From Alphaproteobacteria bacterium (GTDB lineage Bacteria > Pseudomonadota > Alphaproteobacteria > Rhizobiales > Beijerinckiaceae): 50,722 bases of DNA. Below are positions 26,026-48,211 of the stretch, in pieces (the first letter of the stretch is position 1; the number at the start of each line of letters is the position of its first letter). Under the pieces are notes generated by a model that worked only from the letters and a program-made list of their open reading frames with translations, was not told the DNA's origin and did not search any database. The stretch lies in assembly GCA_021325385.1 (NCBI GenBank), contig JAJPHH010000054.1, positions 1 to 50,722 of the forward strand, read 5' to 3'. A program made the translations under genes and the position numbers.

Positions 26026-27054
26026 TCACTTTTTCTTCTGATTCGCCTCGATCGCCGCCGTCGCGTCGGCTTGCGTATATTGTTTGCTCGCGACGCCGCC
26101 TTTCGGGATGCTCGGCAGCGCAGCCTCGAAATCGTTCTGGTTAAATTCGAGATAGGGCACCGTCAGGTCGTGCGGCACGTCCTTCTTGCCGTCGAGCACT
26201 TGTTGGGCGACCCAGAAGGCGAGGGTCGAGAGGCCAGGCGCGACCGAAGCGGACCAGGTCGTGTAGCCGTTCTTCTCCTTCTGCTCCTTCCACCATTCGA
26301 GCTCATCCTGGCGGTTGCCCATGATGATCGTCGGCTCGGGCCGGCCGGCAGCCGCGAAAGCCTGCGCGGCGCCATAGCCGTCGCCGCCCTGGTCGACGAC
26401 GCCGACGATCGGCGGCAGCGACGGCAGCACGGTCGCGACCGCCTTCTGCGCCGTGGTCTCGTCCCAATTGCCGGTCACGGAAGAGACGATCTTGAACTCG
26501 GGGTGCTCTTTCACGCCCTCGACAATGCCGTCATGGATCTCCCCGTCGATCGAGGTGCCGGCAAGGCCGCGGATCTCCAGGAGATTGCCGCCCTTGGGCT
26601 GGAATTTGGCCATGTGAATCACGTTCTGCCGGCCCATCTCCTTGTAATCGATGACGACGCGATAGGCGCAGGGCTCGGTCACGATGCCGTCGAACGAGAC
26701 GACGACGATGCCGGCGTCGCAGGCCTGCTTGACCGCGCCGTTCAGCGCGTCGGGCGAAGCCGCGTCGATGACGATCGCGTTGTAGCCCTGGAGGATGAGA
26801 TTCTGAATCTGCGACGCCTGAGTCGGCGCCTCCTTGTCGGGTGTCGTGAAAGCGTCCGCCGCCGCCACGACATGGTCGGCCACCGCCTTTTTGGCGACGG
26901 CTTCGTAATCCTTGAGCATTTGCTGACGCCAGGAATTGCCGGCGTAATTGTTGGACAGGGCGATCTTGCTCGCGCTCGTGTCGGCCCGGGCAACGCCGGC
27001 AAAAACGGCGTAAACGCAAGCTCCAAGCAGGAGCGCCTCGGCTAACCTCTTCAT
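26026..27054 (-). CDS. Periplasmic sugar-binding protein, RbsB-like (paralogue 2)
   Basis: The 342-residue protein has a Sec signal (MKRLAEALLLGACVYAVFAG then VARA) and the Peripla_BP_4 fold: IALSNNYAGNSWRQQMLKDY, LILQGYNAIVIDAASPDALN, GGNLLEIRGLAGTSIDGEIHDG, and the hinge region GVVDQGGDGYGAAQAFAAAG. GAGGAGGAAA is upstream of ATG 27054. It is strikingly similar (roughly four in five residues by eye) to the gene at 27310-28329, so the two arose by tandem duplication. These are the best candidates for the binding proteins of the RbsA/C importer at 17.7-21.1 kb. Ligand unknown. Confidence 0.92.
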   Translation of the reverse strand: MKRLAEALLLGACVYAVFAGVARADTSASKIALSNNYAGNSWRQQMLKDYEAVAKKAVADHVVAAADAFTTPDKEAPTQASQIQNLILQGYNAIVIDAASPDALNGAVKQACDAGIVVVSFDGIVTEPCAYRVVIDYKEMGRQNVIHMAKFQPKGGNLLEIRGLAGTSIDGEIHDGIVEGVKEHPEFKIVSSVTGNWDETTAQKAVATVLPSLPPIVGVVDQGGDGYGAAQAFAAAGRPEPTIIMGNRQDELEWWKEQKEKNGYTTWSASVAPGLSTLAFWVAQQVLDGKKDVPHDLTVPYLEFNQNDFEAALPSIPKGGVASKQYTQADATAAIEANQKKK

Positions 27055-42123: not shown

Positions 42124-45100
42124 CTACGGGCTTGCCGCCCGCCTCACGGCCGCAACGCGCCCGACGAGCGCGATTTCGATCGCCGGCAAGGTCGCCAGGT
42201 ATCCGTATTGCTCGCCTTCCTGCTTGAGTCGGCGCAGCGCCACGACGGCTTCCGCTTCGTTGCCGCGCCCGTGGGCAATGAGCGCCCGGGCCCGCGCCAA
42301 GTGGAAGGCGGACCATGGCGACGGCTCGCGCGCGGCGTAAGCCTCCAGAGCCGCAACATGCTCCTCGGCAAGATCAAAAAGTCCTCGTTCGAGGCTGGCG
42401 TCGATGGCGTCGCGATGGAACAAATAATGATTGTGGCTCACCGCTCCGGCGGCGAGCAGCGCGTCGCCCTCGGCCAGGGCCGCCGCGAACTGCTCGCTGT
42501 CCTGCGTCGTGTGGGCCAAGATGCCGAGATAGTAAGGCCCGAGATAAGCCATGCCGGTCTCGCGACTGATCGCCAAGGCTGCGTCGATGTCGCTAAGCGC
42601 TTCCGCGCGCCGGCCGGCGATGCGATGGACCTCGGCGCGGAAGGCGAGCGCCTCAGCCTCGAAACGCGGCGCTCCAAGCTGCCGCGCAATCGCCAATGCC
42701 GACTCGGCATGCGCCGAGGCCTGCGCCCATTCCGTCAGCGCGTGCAAGCAGTGAAAGGCGGCGTGGTGAGCCACCATCTGCGCGCGACGATGGCCGATCG
42801 TAAGCGCCCCGGAGACGCCGGCCAGCGCATCCTCTAGCGCCGCCTTCGTCCGCCCCGCAGAATAGGCGGTCATGGCGCGCATCGGCCGGTTCGCCATTTC
42901 GATGCGCATCAGTCCATGACGTTCGCAGAGCACGATGCAGCGGTCGAAGGCGTCATAGGCGCTCACCATGCGGCCGCGCATATATTCGGCATCCCCGAGT
43001 CCGCCGAGCGCCGCGGCCTCCAGCTCAGCGTCGCCGGCCTCGCGAGCCAAGGCGAGGCTGCGGCCATGCTCCCTGACGCAGCGCTCCGTTTCGCCGCGCG
43101 GAAAGCAGAGATTGCCGCGCAGGAAATGAATGCGCGCTTGCTCGGCGACGAGTCCATCGGCGGACGCCGCAGCCTCGGCGGCGTCGAGGTCGGCCCAGGC
43201 GCCGGCGAGATCGTCCGTCACGCGCTTGACCTTGGCGAGCCCGATCAGGGCGCGGCAACGCCCGGCCTGGCTCGTCGCCGCCTCGAGCGCGCGGGCGCTG
43301 GCGGTCAGCGCCGCCGGCATGTCGCCAAGATCATGGAGGACGTCGCCGAGCAGCAACTGCAGCGCGAAGCGATCGGCGGACTCGACAGCGACTCGCAGAC
43401 CGCATTCGATCAGTCCCTGCGCCGCCTCGTAGCGATATCCCTCCGCTTGCGCGCGCGCGGCCTCGAAATAGGCGCGCGCCGCGCGAGAGTCCTCCGCGCG
43501 GTTGAGATGCTCGGCCGCAAGCGAAGCGTCGCGACCGTCGTACCATTCGGCCGCGCGCAGATGCAGCTCGCGGCGGCGCGCCTTCAATAGACCGTCATAG
43601 ACTGCGTCGCGGATCAATGCGTGGTGGAAAATATATCCGTCCTTTTGTGGCCGCAGCATGAGTTGGGCGGCGAGCCGGTCAAGTGACGGCCTTTCGCCCA
43701 GAAGATATTCGAGCGCCTCCGGCTCGATGCGTTGGCCGAGAACAGACGCGGCCTGCGCGGCCGCCTTGTCGGCCGGGTCGAGGCGATCGAGACGCGCTTG
43801 CGCCAGGCTTTGCACCGAACCCGGGACGTCGCTCCGGCCAGCCTGCTGCGAGTGGCGCAGCAGTTGCTCGAGAAAAAGCGGGTTGCCGCCCGCCCTTTCG
43901 ATGCAGAGATTGATGAAATCTTCGGTTGCGCTCGACAGCGGCGCGGCAAGACGGCGCGCGTCGCCAGCGGGAAGCGGGCCGAGATCGATGGTCGTAAGCG
44001 CGGCCGGCGCCGCCTCGGACCGCCACGTCCCGTCGATGGGATCGCCCTCGAGACGGGAGGTCATGACGAGCAACGCGCGGCTGTCGGCGAGGCTCGCGGC
44101 GAGCGAAGCGAGATCGCTCAGCGTCGAACCGCTCGCCCAATGCAGATCTTCGACCACGAGCAGGCGCGGCGCTATCCGGCTCGCCCGTTCGACGAGCCGC
44201 GAGGCAAGATCGCGACGGCCGCGCACGCGCATTGCATTGTCCATCGCGTCATAGCGCGAGCGCTCGGCCGGGGTCTGGGGGACGTCGAGGAGATCGTTGA
44301 GGAAGACGAGGTCGTCGGTTTCCGCCAGCTTAGCCTTGATTGCTTCGGCGGCGGCTGCGCGCGCCGCGTCCTCGCCGCTCGCGACGCTAAGTCCAACGAG
44401 GTCGCGAACAAGCAAGCGAACCGCGTCCCGTCCGATGCGCGCGCCGAAATCGAGCGCGTGCCCGGCGTGGCAAGCAAAGCCCGCTTCGCGCGACGCGCGC
44501 TGCAGCTCCTCGACGAGTCGCGTCTTGCCGATGCCGGCTTCGCCGCGAAGATAGACCGTCCCTCCGCGTCCCGTCTCCGCACACGCGGCAAGGAGCGCGC
44601 CGAGCTGCGCGAGTTCGCCGGCGCGGCCGACAAAGGGCCGCGCGCTCGCCGCCACGCTCAGGCCGAGCAGGCGCCAAGCGCGAACCGGATCGGCAAATCC
44701 TTTGACCTGAAGCGCGCCTCGCTCGGCGCAGTCCAGTCGTTCGGAAAGCGCGCGGCGCGCCGCGTCGGAGATCAGAATTTCGCCGGGGCCGGCTGCGTCG
44801 GTCAGTCGCGCGGCAAGGTTCACCGTCTCGCCGGTTACCGTATACTCGCGGTGACTCGCGCTGCCTGCGCCGCTCGCGACCACCTGGCCGCTGGCGACGC
44901 CGATATGGGCCGAAAGCGTTCGTCCGGCGCCGGCCGAAAGCGTCGGCACGGCGTCGCGGATCGCTAGCGCCGCGCGCATCGCGCGCTCCAGGTCATCGCC
45001 GTAGGCGAGAGGCGCGCCGAACACCGCCATGACGCTGTCGCCGATATGTTTGTCGATATGTCCGCCGTGCCGCTCAACCAGCCGGTCGACGATCTCGAAA

Positions 45101-45459
45101 TAGCGATCGAGCGTTGCGTGCAGCTCCTCGGCGTCGAGTTCTCGGCTCAGGGCCGTGAAGCCGCTGAGATCGGCGAACATGACCGCGACCTGGCGCCGCT
45201 CGCCTCGTGACAAGCTTAGCGGAGGATTCGTCGCCGCGCCGGCCGTCGCGGTCGAAGGCGAGGAGGCTTGCGGCGCCGGCCGCCGCAGAGTGGCGAGGGC
45301 GTCGAGCAATTTACGGCGATGCCCGATCGACGCCACGCCGAGTTCTTTGAGATCGTCCGCCGTGAGGTTCGGCAGCACCTCGCCGTCAATGGCGTTGTCG
45401 CGAAACGCCCGCTCGTAGCGCTCCATGCCGAGACTGCGCAGCCACGCGGCGACGTCCAT
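42124..45459 (-). CDS. SAM - class III nucleotidyl cyclase - AAA/STAND ATPase - TPR regulator
   Basis: This 1111-residue protein has four parts. Residues 1-60 form a SAM domain (AAWLRSLGMERYERAFRDN). Residues about 90-255 form a class III cyclase with the metal-binding Asp97 in MFADLSGFT and Asp141 in HIGDSVMAVFG, the adenine-specifying Lys137, and TGETVNLAARL with the transition-state Asn/Arg. About 275-620 form an AAA/STAND ATPase (Walker A GEAGIGKT at 306-313, LVVEDLHWASGS as Walker B). The remaining 490 residues are TPR-like helices. ATG 45459 follows GGAGGAGCC. It should make cAMP in response to signals bound by the C-terminal regions. No unusual residues were found in the active site, so catalytic activity is likely. 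Confidence 0.9.
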   Translation of the reverse strand: MDVAAWLRSLGMERYERAFRDNAIDGEVLPNLTADDLKELGVASIGHRRKLLDALATLRRPAPQASSPSTATAGAATNPPLSLSRGERRQVAVMFADLSGFTALSRELDAEELHATLDRYFEIVDRLVERHGGHIDKHIGDSVMAVFGAPLAYGDDLERAMRAALAIRDAVPTLSAGAGRTLSAHIGVASGQVVASGAGSASHREYTVTGETVNLAARLTDAAGPGEILISDAARRALSERLDCAERGALQVKGFADPVRAWRLLGLSVAASARPFVGRAGELAQLGALLAACAETGRGGTVYLRGEAGIGKTRLVEELQRASREAGFACHAGHALDFGARIGRDAVRLLVRDLVGLSVASGEDAARAAAAEAIKAKLAETDDLVFLNDLLDVPQTPAERSRYDAMDNAMRVRGRRDLASRLVERASRIAPRLLVVEDLHWASGSTLSDLASLAASLADSRALLVMTSRLEGDPIDGTWRSEAAPAALTTIDLGPLPAGDARRLAAPLSSATEDFINLCIERAGGNPLFLEQLLRHSQQAGRSDVPGSVQSLAQARLDRLDPADKAAAQAASVLGQRIEPEALEYLLGERPSLDRLAAQLMLRPQKDGYIFHHALIRDAVYDGLLKARRRELHLRAAEWYDGRDASLAAEHLNRAEDSRAARAYFEAARAQAEGYRYEAAQGLIECGLRVAVESADRFALQLLLGDVLHDLGDMPAALTASARALEAATSQAGRCRALIGLAKVKRVTDDLAGAWADLDAAEAAASADGLVAEQARIHFLRGNLCFPRGETERCVREHGRSLALAREAGDAELEAAALGGLGDAEYMRGRMVSAYDAFDRCIVLCERHGLMRIEMANRPMRAMTAYSAGRTKAALEDALAGVSGALTIGHRRAQMVAHHAAFHCLHALTEWAQASAHAESALAIARQLGAPRFEAEALAFRAEVHRIAGRRAEALSDIDAALAISRETGMAYLGPYYLGILAHTTQDSEQFAAALAEGDALLAAGAVSHNHYLFHRDAIDASLERGLFDLAEEHVAALEAYAAREPSPWSAFHLARARALIAHGRGNEAEAVVALRRLKQEGEQYGYLATLPAIEIALVGRVAAVRRAASP

Positions 45460-45634: not shown

Positions 45635-46231
45635 TCACCTCGGCCGCATGGCGTTGACGCGCGCGGCCCAGTCGAGGGCGACGTCGTAGATCGGCGGCTC
45701 GACATTGGAGAGCAGCGTCCACAGGCCCGCGATCTGGCTGCGCTTGAGCATCTTGATCAAGATACGGCCGTCGGAGAGGCCGCAGACGCACATATGGCCG
45801 GCGAGGTTATCGTCCGGCGGATCGCGTACGTCGTCGTAGAAGACGAGCCAATTCTCGAAGAGCGCGCCGAGCGATTGGCCGCGCACCTGAACTGCGACGG
45901 TTTGCGCGCTCGATCCGTCCGGCGCCGGGACCTCGTCGAACGGGCCCTGACCCTCGGCGTAGAAATGCGCCTCCGCGCCGGCGCCGACATAGCCGACGAC
46001 CGGCACGAGCAGGCCTGACGGCGGCCGCCTCCCGCCGCCGAGGAAGGGCGGCGGCTCGACGCCGAGATAATTCGCCGCAATGGCGATCTCCTCCGCCCGT
46101 AAGCGCCGCGTGCCGTTGAGCAAGTCCGTGACCGCCGAAGGAGAACGGCCAAGCGCCTTGGCGAGGCCGCTCCGGGTTTTTCCGGTCGCCAGAAGGGCTT
46201 TGCGGATCCAATCGACGACGTCATTCGGCAT
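45635..46231 (-). CDS. CI/LexA-like repressor: XRE HTH with S24 peptidase domain
   Basis: The 198-residue protein has an N-terminal helix-turn-helix (TRSGLAKALGRSPSAVTDLL, about residues 19-38) and an S24-type C-terminal domain: GYVGAGAEAHF resembles the Ala-Gly cleavage site, Ser120 in VQVRGQSL the nucleophile and Lys160 in RILIKML the general base. The Ser-Lys spacing (40) is close to that of LexA. I use ATG 46231; upstream frame has no conserved sequence and overlaps the promoter. It is divergent from two plus-strand genes with three palindromes between, a phage-switch layout. RecA-stimulated self-cleavage is inference. Confidence 0.87.
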   Translation of the reverse strand: MPNDVVDWIRKALLATGKTRSGLAKALGRSPSAVTDLLNGTRRLRAEEIAIAANYLGVEPPPFLGGGRRPPSGLLVPVVGYVGAGAEAHFYAEGQGPFDEVPAPDGSSAQTVAVQVRGQSLGALFENWLVFYDDVRDPPDDNLAGHMCVCGLSDGRILIKMLKRSQIAGLWTLLSNVEPPIYDVALDWAARVNAMRPR

Positions 46232-46236
46232 AGCCG

Positions 46237-46265
46237 AATTATTCTGGTATTCAGAACGCCTGCAA
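46237..46265 (-). promoter_or_regulatory. Promoter of the repressor gene, predicted leaderless
   Basis: On the minus strand TTGCAG (46265-46260), a 17-bp spacer and ATAATT (46242-46237) form a promoter whose -10 box ends only five bases before the repressor ATG (46231). This predicts a leaderless mRNA, as for lambda cI from PRM. Operator 1 (46242-46256) lies between the -35 and -10 boxes. Confidence 0.5.
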
Positions 46266-46313
46266 TTATGTTTTCCAGAAATTTTGCTTGACAAGTGATT
46301 CCGATTTTCAGAA
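46242..46313. promoter_or_regulatory. Three-operator control region of the divergent switch
   Basis: Three 15-bp palindromes share the pattern TTnnG-N5-CAGAA: O1 TTCTG-gtatt-CAGAA (46242-46256), O2 TTATG-ttttc-CAGAA (46266-46280), and O3 TTCCG-atttt-CAGAA (46299-46313). O1 lies within the core of the repressor promoter, O2 abuts its -35 box and O3 lies within the core of the rightward promoter. The arrangement resembles the lambda right operator. The adjacent repressor is the expected binder. Confidence 0.6.
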
Positions 46314-46316
46314 TAT
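46288..46316 (+). promoter_or_regulatory. Rightward promoter of the repressor-controlled genes
   Basis: TTGACA (46288-46293), a 17-bp spacer and GAATAT (46311-46316) give a near-consensus sigma-70 promoter in an AT-rich pocket. Operator 3 covers the spacer and the start of the -10. The expected transcript begins near 46323 and has a leader of about 46 bases with GAGGGAG ahead of ATG 46369. Confidence 0.6.
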
Positions 46317-46368
46317 ACCGGGACACCGAATTTTGCGGCGAATCGCCAACCTGAGGGAGCCGCCGACG

Positions 46369-46593
46369 ATGGGCAGAGCCCGCGCGCGCCGCCGCGCGCC
46401 CAAAATCGACACCGCACGGATCAAGTCCATCGCCGCCTGCGCCGCGCATCTCCGCGACTTGAAGCGCGCTCATGATCGGCCGCCGCCGGATATGGAGGAA
46501 ACGCCGGCGCCCGCGCTCCGCCGGTTCTCGCCGCCCGCGACAAGCTCCTACTGCACTTCGCCGGCCGAACTCTGCGCGGAGTTCGCCAAGTGA
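46369..46593 (+). CDS. Small basic hypothetical protein, first gene of the repressor-controlled unit
   Basis: The 74-residue protein starts with a strongly basic patch (MGRARARRRAPK), followed by a short helix (DTARIKSIAACAAHLRDLKR), then a proline-rich stretch and an ending CTSPAELCAEFAK. I do not recognise a family. It occupies the position of Cro in a lambda-type switch but shows no HTH. A GAGGGAG ribosome binding site supports ATG 46369. Its stop overlaps the start of the next gene by four bases (GTGA). Confidence 0.55.
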   Translation: MGRARARRRAPKIDTARIKSIAACAAHLRDLKRAHDRPPPDMEETPAPALRRFSPPATSSYCTSPAELCAEFAK

Positions 46594-47159
46594 GCGCGCG
46601 GGCCAGCCGGCGCCCGACCCGCAAACGGGAATCCGCCGCGCCCGAGCGGCTCGAACCGACGCCGGAGCGCCTCGCGCGGGCTCGCGACGCGGGGCAAGAG
46701 GCGGCGCAGGATCGCGAGCGCCGTTCGCGCATCGATGATCCTTTCGACGTGATGCGCGCACATCGGGCGCTTGCGCCGCACGATCCGCGTCTCAACGATT
46801 TGCGCTGGCTGATCGGGGAAGCGCTGCGCCGCTTGCATCATCGCGCCGGGCTCGACGGATTGCGCGCCATGGCGCCGGACCGCGTCGGCCTCGTCGCGCA
46901 TGGCCCGCGTTGCGGCCTGCCGCTATCCGACATCGCCCTCAACGCGCGAGATAAGCTGCGCGCCTGCGAAAGTCTGGCGGGGACGGCGGCCTGGCCGGTT
47001 CTGCGGCGCATCGTGATCGAAGGCGCGCCTTTGCGCGATTGCCGGACGCTGGTCGCCGAGGTTTCGACGCCCTGGCGCGCCGACGCCATTCTCGCGGACC
47101 GCCTGCGCTGCGGCCTCGACGCGATCGGCGCCCATCTCGGCGTGACGGCGAAAAGATAA
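46590..47159 (+). CDS. Hypothetical protein, second gene of the repressor-controlled unit
   Basis: The 189-residue protein starts at GTG 46590, overlapping the previous stop. The first 60 residues are charged (RPTRKRESAAPERLEPTPER); from about residue 65 a helical domain follows: NDLRWLIGEALRRLHHRAGL, PLSDIALNARDKLRACESLA, WPVLRRIVIEGAPLRDCRTL, and ADRLRCGLDAIGAHLGV. The last helices look like a DNA-binding-type tri-helical unit, but I cannot name a family. A prophage- or mobile-element-related regulator is possible from the context of a CI-like repressor; no other phage genes are present. Confidence 0.55.
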   Translation: MSARASRRPTRKRESAAPERLEPTPERLARARDAGQEAAQDRERRSRIDDPFDVMRAHRALAPHDPRLNDLRWLIGEALRRLHHRAGLDGLRAMAPDRVGLVAHGPRCGLPLSDIALNARDKLRACESLAGTAAWPVLRRIVIEGAPLRDCRTLVAEVSTPWRADAILADRLRCGLDAIGAHLGVTAKR

Positions 47160-47679: not shown

Positions 47680-47708
47680 TTGTCAAGAGGGTTGCCACAT
47701 ACTATACT
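47680..47708 (+). promoter_or_regulatory. Promoter of the small two-gene operon, predicted leaderless
   Basis: TTGTCA (47680-47685), 17 bp, and TATACT (47703-47708) form a good sigma-70 promoter. The start codon at 47715 lies six bases after the -10 box, at the expected transcription start, and no ribosome binding site exists. A 9-bp direct repeat ATCGATTCT (47646-47654 and 47672-47680) just upstream could be a regulator site. Confidence 0.65.
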
Positions 47709-47714
47709 TTAACC

Positions 47715-48011
47715 ATGCAGGAAAAACAGACAATCGAGCAAAAGATCATACATATCAAAACGCTGGTGCATAAAAGCACAGGCGCGCTATTGGCTGTGAG
47801 CGACGATCTAAAAGGTTTTATGGTCGCGGGTAAGACTCATGATGAAATTGAGCATAAGCTTGAGACCGCCCTTCGGGACCATTTCGAACTTCTCGGTTTT
47901 GCGCTAATCTCCATCCTGGTTTCGTCGGAAGAAGACGAAGTGGCCGGGTTTGATCGCTCGCTTCCGGCGTTTACAGCGCGCGCTTCGCTTGAAGAAAAAC
48001 ACGCAGCTTGA
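47715..48011 (+). CDS. DUF1902/HicB-like protein
   Basis: The 98-residue protein fits the DUF1902/HicB-like fold at its N-terminus: IIHIKTLVHKSTGALLAVSD then DLKGFMVAGKTHDEIEHKLE. This fold pairs with toxins in HicBA modules, where it occludes the toxin. The C-terminal half (ALISILVSSEEDEVAGFDRS and beyond) lacks a DNA-binding domain and is not conserved. Its AT-richer codons differ from neighbours (47.7-48.2 kb), suggesting acquisition by transfer. The start is the leaderless ATG. Confidence 0.6.
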   Translation: MQEKQTIEQKIIHIKTLVHKSTGALLAVSDDLKGFMVAGKTHDEIEHKLETALRDHFELLGFALISILVSSEEDEVAGFDRSLPAFTARASLEEKHAA

Positions 48012-48211
48012 CTGTTGATGAATATTGGGCGCGCATTCGGATGCTTTCCCTGCATCGCGAGCGCGATTCCACAGACGGCGACGCCGTCCTTTTCAGAACC
48101 AGCAATGGCGACCCGGTGAGAATAGAAAAGCCTGATCGGCATTCTGATGAGGTGAGGGAGGCGTACCTCGCCTATTATGAAATGATGTACTCGCCCCACC
48201 GCGCCAACTAA
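48008..48211 (+). CDS. Small hypothetical protein, partner of the DUF1902-like gene
   Basis: The 67-residue protein starts at TTG 48008, overlapping the preceding stop by four bases (TTGA). Sequence: an acidic helix MTVDEYWARIRMLSLHRERD, a strand segment GDAVLFRTSNGDPVRIEKP, and a helix SDEVREAYLAYYEMMY. It does not contain the HicA toxin signature that I know. Tight overlap and shared composition indicate it is the second half of the unit. Function is unknown. Confidence 0.55.
   Translation: MTVDEYWARIRMLSLHRERDSTDGDAVLFRTSNGDPVRIEKPDRHSDEVREAYLAYYEMMYSPHRAN

Follow-up and report, generated by a model that had tools for sequence, protein, structure and literature searches.

On the minus strand of the window—by which we mean the whole analyzed stretch, 50,722 nucleotides of contig JAJPHH010000054.1 from an assembly of 5.35 Mb in 209 contigs—a gene at 45635..46231 encodes an S24/CI-type repressor of 198 aa with an HTH and an S24 domain, identified through Pfam, alignment, a structural model, and a PDB match. 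Divergent from it, on the plus strand, lie g74 (46369..46593), defined by alignment and encoding a 74-aa protein of no known family, and g189 (46590..47159), which begins with GTG and encodes a 189-aa protein distantly related to DUF6456/GafZ-like proteins according to profile and model matches. This three-gene cassette was found in all 11 searched genomes of the genus, which we take to be GTDB's Roseiarcus. In every one of them, the two plus-strand ORFs share 4 nt (starts were set at the nearest upstream start codon, and the contigs of G008 and G001 end within the second ORF).

The cassette is flanked on one side by genes for YebC/PmpR, a TIGR00282 metallophosphoesterase, and 5-formyltetrahydrofolate cyclo-ligase and on the other by a large protein with SAM, guanylate cyclase, AAA, and TPR domains (42124-45459, minus strand). 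YebC is also near the cassette in L031, L032, L033, and L038, making five genomes with the window included; it was not found in L035, L039, and L040 despite several kilobases on that side, and the other three contigs end too soon for the comparison. A resident chromosomal place for the switch, as put forward in the original prediction, is supported. The accompanying claim that no integrase, capsid, or lysis gene surrounds it stands for the 15 window ORFs tested, among which none of these families was named and several matched PHROGs of unknown function. Beyond the cassette, two short overlapping ORFs (47715-48211, plus strand) follow a promoter-like TTGTCA-17-TATACT (47680-47708); the first matches DUF1902 below the threshold (E 0.059), and the two are perhaps, at a guess, a HicB-type pair.

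What kind of repressor is this? In Pfam, HTH_31 and HTH_3 score above the cut-off and Peptidase_S24 below it. The protein is present in 11/11 Roseiarcus genomes searched, at 73-80% identity. Its AlphaFold model, built from 14 sequences (mean pLDDT 79.8, pTM 0.59), has as its best solved-structure matches a lambda-186 hybrid repressor (E 1.3e-6), LexA with RecA, the 186 repressor, and the lambda repressor with RecA. The lambda/186 repressor and LexA matches range from E 1e-6 to 3e-5, with low whole-chain TM-scores (0.35-0.45) and unrelated beta proteins appearing from E 8e-4. At the level of the model, these structures support the CI/LexA-type assignment made originally, with an N-terminal HTH followed by a C-terminal S24 domain that is recognized by its fold. 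Residues A84-G85, S120, and K160 are invariant in all 14 aligned repressors (10 of the 11 genus members plus four others). Judging from motif and spacing and from LexA and CI numbering, A84-G85 would be the scissile pair and S120/K160 the Ser/Lys dyad, so that the Ala-Gly pair and the dyad of the S24/CI-LexA type are both present in the sequence. Homologs were found in two records of the phage collection. The closer one, from Mesorhizobium phage vB_MseS-P1 (PP232116), is gp11, with 46% identity across 92% of the query; its gene is divergent from that of a small HTH protein, and the phage also encodes a tyrosine integrase.

How is the spacer between the repressor and the plus-strand genes built? 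The lambda switch has divergent promoters, overlapping operators, and a leaderless repressor transcript. Three sites of the form TTnnG-N5-CAGAA, as originally described, lie in this spacer: O1 (46242-46256, TTCTGGTATTCAGAA), a perfect TTCTG-N5-CAGAA palindrome; O2 (46266-46280, TTATGTTTTCCAGAA), reading TTATG-N5-CAGAA; and O3 (46299-46313, TTCCGATTTTCAGAA), reading TTCCG-N5-CAGAA. None of 2000 dinucleotide shuffles placed three sites in the 152-bp spacer segment. Across both strands of the window, TTNNG-N5-CAGAA has six matches, a number reached in 0/100 window shuffles; four are O1-O3 (O1 is counted twice), and the remaining two lie at 26203 and, within the repressor gene, at 46180-46194. Because the motif was derived from O1-O3 themselves, conservation is a fairer test than shuffling. 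A fourth operator-like site (46224-46238, TTCGGCATAGCCGAA), a perfect palindrome of the same form as O1-O3, covers the repressor ATG. The rightward promoter TTGACA-17-GAATAT, read from the sequence (46288-46316, plus strand; -35 at 46288-46293 and -10 at 46311-46316), is overlapped by O3, which lies over its spacer and part of its -10. A candidate repressor promoter, TTGCAG-16-AATAAT (46238-46265, minus strand; -35 at 46265-46260 and -10 at 46243-46238), holds O1 in its core and has O2 abutting its -35, as predicted. By sequence alone, the spacer has the several shared operators and divergent promoters of a lambda-type switch. The rightward -35 (TTGAC) and the leftward -35 (GCAA) are each invariant in 11/11 spacers.

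The original prediction also proposed a leaderless repressor mRNA with a -10 ending five bases before the ATG. The distance from the leftward AATAAT to the ATG (46231) is six bases, and it is five if ATAATT is taken as the -10. AATAAT, AATAGT, or TATACT occurs six bases before the start codon in all six near species, so the geometry is kept. However, a scan of the window did not report TTGCAG-16-AATAAT among its promoters and instead gave a rival, TTGTCA-18-CATAAT (46265-46294, minus strand; 10/12), with a leader of ~27 nt and a -35 that falls on the rightward -35. Given the AATAAT on one hand and this rival on the other, leaderless transcription of the repressor is plausible only.

Are the operators conserved in relatives? 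On the basis of their cassette spacers, the genomes fall into a near group (the window and L002-L006) and a far group (L007-L011), with spacers of 108-137 bp and 168-226 bp, respectively. The exact form TTCnG-N5-CnGAA occurs in 8 of the 10 orthologous spacers: five times at O1, twice at O3, and once (L011) at a nonhomologous place. Shuffles gave a mean total of 0.09 and a maximum of 2 in 500 sets, a null that ignores shared descent and so treats the ten orthologs as if they were independent. All five near orthologs and none of the far ones have an exact O1, although a one-mismatch match overlaps its place in each of the five far spacers. For O2, the near group keeps the right half, CAGAA, with a degenerate left half, and no exact site was found at O1 or O2 in L007-L011. 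The recognition helix of the far-clade repressors looks like that of the near clade, yet O1 and O2 are inexact there. At a distance of 11 bp from TTGAC, O3 matches exactly in the window, L008, and L009; it has one mismatch in L002, L003, L004, L007, and L010, one mismatch and a shift of one base in L006, and two mismatches in L005 and L011. The fourth site has no counterpart at the homologous place in the 10 orthologs and is confined to the window. The predicted conservation of TTnnG-N5-CAGAA in aligned spacers therefore holds for O1 in the near group and for O3 in part (exact in two of ten), but O2 persists as a half-site and the far group lacks exact O1 and O2.

A second element emerged from the same spacers. 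An exact LexA box, GAAC-N7-GAAC, is present in all ten orthologous spacers (shuffle mean total, 0.09), lying on the rightward -10 in L002 and beginning 0-3 bases past it in the remaining nine. The corresponding stretch of the window (46311..46334, plus strand) has no box, and none was found in the window spacer even with one mismatch allowed, so that the window copy lacks this mark of a LexA regulon. The lambda-like description first given was incomplete in this respect, having missed the box of the ten relatives. The same motif precedes lexA in 5/5 genus genomes and recA in the four of those five in which recA was found. Genome-wide, it is in clear excess only in G005 and in slight excess in G006, with none in G000, G002, and G010. 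Since GAAC-N7-GAAC is not rare genome-wide, a single match is no evidence, and position and conservation carry the argument. In G005 (Roseiarcus fermentans), 247 matches on both strands compare with 55 for the backward control, an excess that is either a large LexA-like box set or a repeated element. In G019, a LexA-type match (L098, 14415-14429) lies by eye at the start of a GcrA-like gene, with an S24 repressor (29-30% identical) encoded divergently and a terminase-like frame ~2.5 kb away.

Could the cassette be a decaying prophage remnant without present function? Its copy in the window has no LexA box, and no phage structural gene was named among the neighbors tested, as a remnant might have it. 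However, both ORFs, their 4-nt overlap, and either O1 or O3 have been kept across the genus at 43-80% protein identity, and we regard decay as very improbable.

What do the two plus-strand genes encode? For g74, searches of Pfam, PHROG, and NCBIfam at E 0.1 gave nothing, nor was there a DnaA-like (GafY, domain IV) match; its alignment has 12 invariant columns. A Cro-like gene opposite the repressor was not found, as g74 matches no Cro-like family in those three collections, and, as far as these sequence searches reach, the lambda-like design does not extend to the partner gene. The g189 family has a mean column identity of 66% (10 sequences). DUF6456 (PF20057) was matched by seven of these 10 (best E 0.0013), all below the curated cut-off, and the window g189 drew nothing from Pfam even with the limit relaxed to E 10. 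Of 26 extracted canonical DUF6456 proteins, 17 were used for a profile comparison with g189 (hhalign), which gave E 2.9e-5 and a probability of 74% over 119 columns. Searching the PDB by sequence returned nothing useful for g189. Its model is of low confidence (pLDDT 60.7), better in the C-terminal helical part (about residues 120-180), and its structural matches are weak (best E 0.47). Among them, sigma factors and sigma region 4 predominate, and antiterminator Q21 ranks 27th; on this model, the C terminus is perhaps sigma-region-4-like. Among 50,697 phage records, g189 had no tblastn match at E 0.01; the one PHROG it matches, phrog_21451 (E 3.7e-6), is of unknown function. The analysis found no target for g189. 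The two-gene unit of the original prediction is in place, but g189 appears to be a distant relative of a GTA-type regulator and not an arbitrary host gene.

Relatives of g189 also occur outside the cassette. A second paralog in R. fermentans, 55% identical, lies at 4001-4552 of L107 (NZ_QNRK01000059.1) among phage-like genes (DnaN-like and Gp37/Gp68-like by eye), and the 8.5-kb stretch has no repressor match. In a genome of another genus (G023, L042 6127-8136), a 43-44% repressor homolog is divergent from a 37% g189-like protein, with a GcrA-like stretch between them by eye and no GTA_TIM in the genome.

Is the cassette the Roseiarcus form of a gene transfer agent (GTA) switch, with the repressor as RogA and g189 as a diverged GafZ commanding a phage-type structural cluster? 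A canonical GTA regulator was the reading considered first, DUF6456 being the GafA/GafZ domain—the annotation of GafA relatives (PMC9638019). The published logic, an S24 repressor over a DUF6456-type activator, is the same (PMC9632790, PMC11150451, PMC9638019). DUF6456 exceeds the cut-off in 0/11 genus genomes vs. 39/49 others, so that g189 could stand in for it; other weak DUF6456 matches in the genus, away from the cassette, have E 6e-4 to 0.08, below the cut-off. GTA_TIM occurs in a phage-type cluster in 9 of the 11 genus genomes, and the cluster stretch of G010 (L093) has three GAAC-N7-GAAC matches, one of them (3403) between two frames. The misfits lie in the partner, the operator motif, and the build of the cluster. 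GafY is described as DnaA-like and RogA as lacking cleavage and catalytic residues (PMC9632790; PMC11150451), whereas g74 has no DnaA-like match and the repressor here keeps those residues. The region bound by RogA has GGAA-N4-TTCC repeats (PMC9632790), which is not the TTCnG-N5-CnGAA form of the sites here. GTA_TIM frames of the genus measure 352-857 aa, several also including DUF2460, vs. mostly 1100-1500 aa elsewhere, and G004 and G005 have more than one match; judged from two families in draft assemblies, a canonical RcGTA-type cluster was not found in the genus. That cluster build also occurs in G013 and G019, where DUF6456 has no match at all, and GTA_TIM is missing from G023 even though a g189 relative is encoded there. 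No operator was found ahead of the structural cluster in the window's own genome (L092) or in L093, L094, L096, L097, and L098, and L095 has one G+C-centered match. On these grounds we consider a GTA switch quite unlikely and keep it as a rival only.

Some further observations belong beside this question. The GTA_TIM-DUF2460 frame is ~830 aa in L092 (G000:C154:1-20000), L095/L096 (G005:C7), and L093 (G010:C42), and in G000 and G005 the structural cluster adjoins what looks by eye like fmt. In vB_MseS-P1, gp23 and gp24 were considered as a GafYZ pair and rejected: gp23 has a weak DnaA C-terminal match (E 0.0045) and gp24 no DUF6456 match at E 1. A literature search for Roseiarcus together with gene transfer agent found no paper.

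Does control by the repressor reach beyond the cassette? The palindrome with an AT center, TTCNG-WWWWW-CNGAA, occurs 7, 4, 5, 8, and 4 times in five genus genomes (one occurrence is O3), 28 vs. 0 for a backward-pattern control whose different dinucleotides make it a rough null. The looser TTCNG-N5-CAGAA is about twofold over the control in G000, G005, and G006, with no excess in G002 and G010. Several of the AT-centered palindromes immediately precede genes encoding small, phrog_645-related HTH proteins; 12 further AT-centered sites have no common neighbor, by eye. From 55 matches to this HTH family (E 1e-3, 11 genomes), the 30 genes with a listed locus were examined, and eight have an exact TTCTG-N5-CAGAA 43-159 bp before the matched stretch, whereas 100 sets of single-base shuffles gave none. 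Two of the members found belong to the window's genome, and both have an upstream palindrome. The restriction of control to two genes in the original prediction may therefore be too narrow, and the repressor may bind these palindromes as well.

The HTH genes also differ between clades. The palindrome precedes 7/15 near-clade vs. 1/15 far-clade genes and a LexA-type box 1/15 vs. 8/15, with Fisher values of 0.035 and 0.014 that take no account of relatedness. Of the eight far-clade boxes, that of L191 seems to fall within a coding frame, and several far-group genes have a box covering a -10, by eye. At E 1e-5, the family is present in 11/11 genus genomes vs. 0/20 from other genera of the family; in control genomes, its model matched 6/14 at E 1e-3 and 1/14 at E 1e-5. 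These data also bear on whether the palindromes belong to another DNA-binding protein—the dispersed HTH proteins, for example—with the S24 repressor recognizing something else. Such an arrangement would account for exact palindromes before HTH genes and for the enrichment of the family in the genus, but 22 of the 30 examined members have no exact palindrome, O1 and O3 are placed as CI operators are, and repressor homologs with other recognition helices have other spacer palindromes (by eye, L012, L013, and L014). We find it rather unlikely.

Overall, the cassette is probably a domesticated temperate-phage repressor module set over a distant GafZ-like regulator, with control shared between the repressor and LexA in the relatives. 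We favor this reading because the cassette is present throughout the genus (11/11), its sites are above chance and conserved, and the repressor matches lambda, 186, and LexA structures; the repressor homolog of vB_MseS-P1, the LexA box in 10/10 orthologs, the DUF6456 matches, and the g189 paralog in a phage-like setting point the same way. In such a module, the repressor would sit on TTCnG-N5-CnGAA palindromes overlapping the two divergent promoters, repressing the rightward g74-g189 operon through O3 and tuning its own, perhaps leaderless, transcription through O1 and O2, to which the start-codon site would add in the window species. The effector would be g189, acting either as an antiterminator or as an activator of transcription. 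The switch would open upon DNA damage through RecA-stimulated self-cleavage of the repressor, whose putative cleavage pair and dyad are kept; in the ten other species, damage would also remove LexA from the box at the rightward promoter. The window species, which would have lost its box, would depend on the repressor alone.

A broader version can be put forward tentatively. The CI-type repressor may control both the GafZ-like master regulator and the genus-expanded, dispersed HTH genes as one DNA-damage regulon, whose genes would have been handed from LexA to a phage-type repressor between clades. The window species, with its LexA box lost and a fourth operator gained, would then have completed the exchange.

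How does the cassette compare with known systems? Phage-type repressors that serve their hosts are known one by one (RogA and AlpR). LexA boxes and CI-type operators side by side across a genus, with one species lacking the LexA box, could reveal how control is transferred between the host's SOS repressor and one captured from a phage. A DUF6456-like protein would also become accessible to study in a genus where searches for canonical ones came up empty. The lambda analogy carries over to the CI-type repressor, the divergent promoters, the overlapping and conserved operators, and a phage homolog (46%), and perhaps to a leaderless repressor transcript. It fails for Cro, which was not found, and for O2 and the far-clade O1 and O2; fewer sites are conserved, relatives carry a LexA box, and no lytic genes were named among the neighbors tested. 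The immunity region of vB_MseS-P1 likewise pairs a 46%-identical repressor with a divergent HTH gene, but in a complete phage with an integrase, other partner genes, and a gp24 that has no DUF6456 match.

Two chromosomal systems come closer. As described, RogA-GafYZ has a chromosomal, LexA/CI-like repressor that controls an activator unit of two genes; one of the two proteins is of the GafA C-terminal (DUF6456) kind. This system is unlike the cassette in that rogA (CCNA_00080) lies apart from gafYZ (CCNA_01111-01112) in Caulobacter crescentus (PMC9632790; PMC11150451), whereas here the repressor adjoins g74-g189, and also in its DnaA-like GafY, its operator repeats, and the cleavage residues discussed above. 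AlpR of Pseudomonas aeruginosa, according to the reports, cleaves itself upon DNA damage and thereby opens a transcription regulator gene, leading to programmed cell death (PMC7969949; PMC9371919). The shared feature is a repressor over a regulator gene, with cleavage upon damage reported for AlpR and only proposed here; AlpA is an antiterminator with known targets, alpBCDE (PMC7969949; PMC9371919), and g189 is set beside it by description. The cassette resembles, by analogy, both RogA-GafYZ and AlpR-AlpA.
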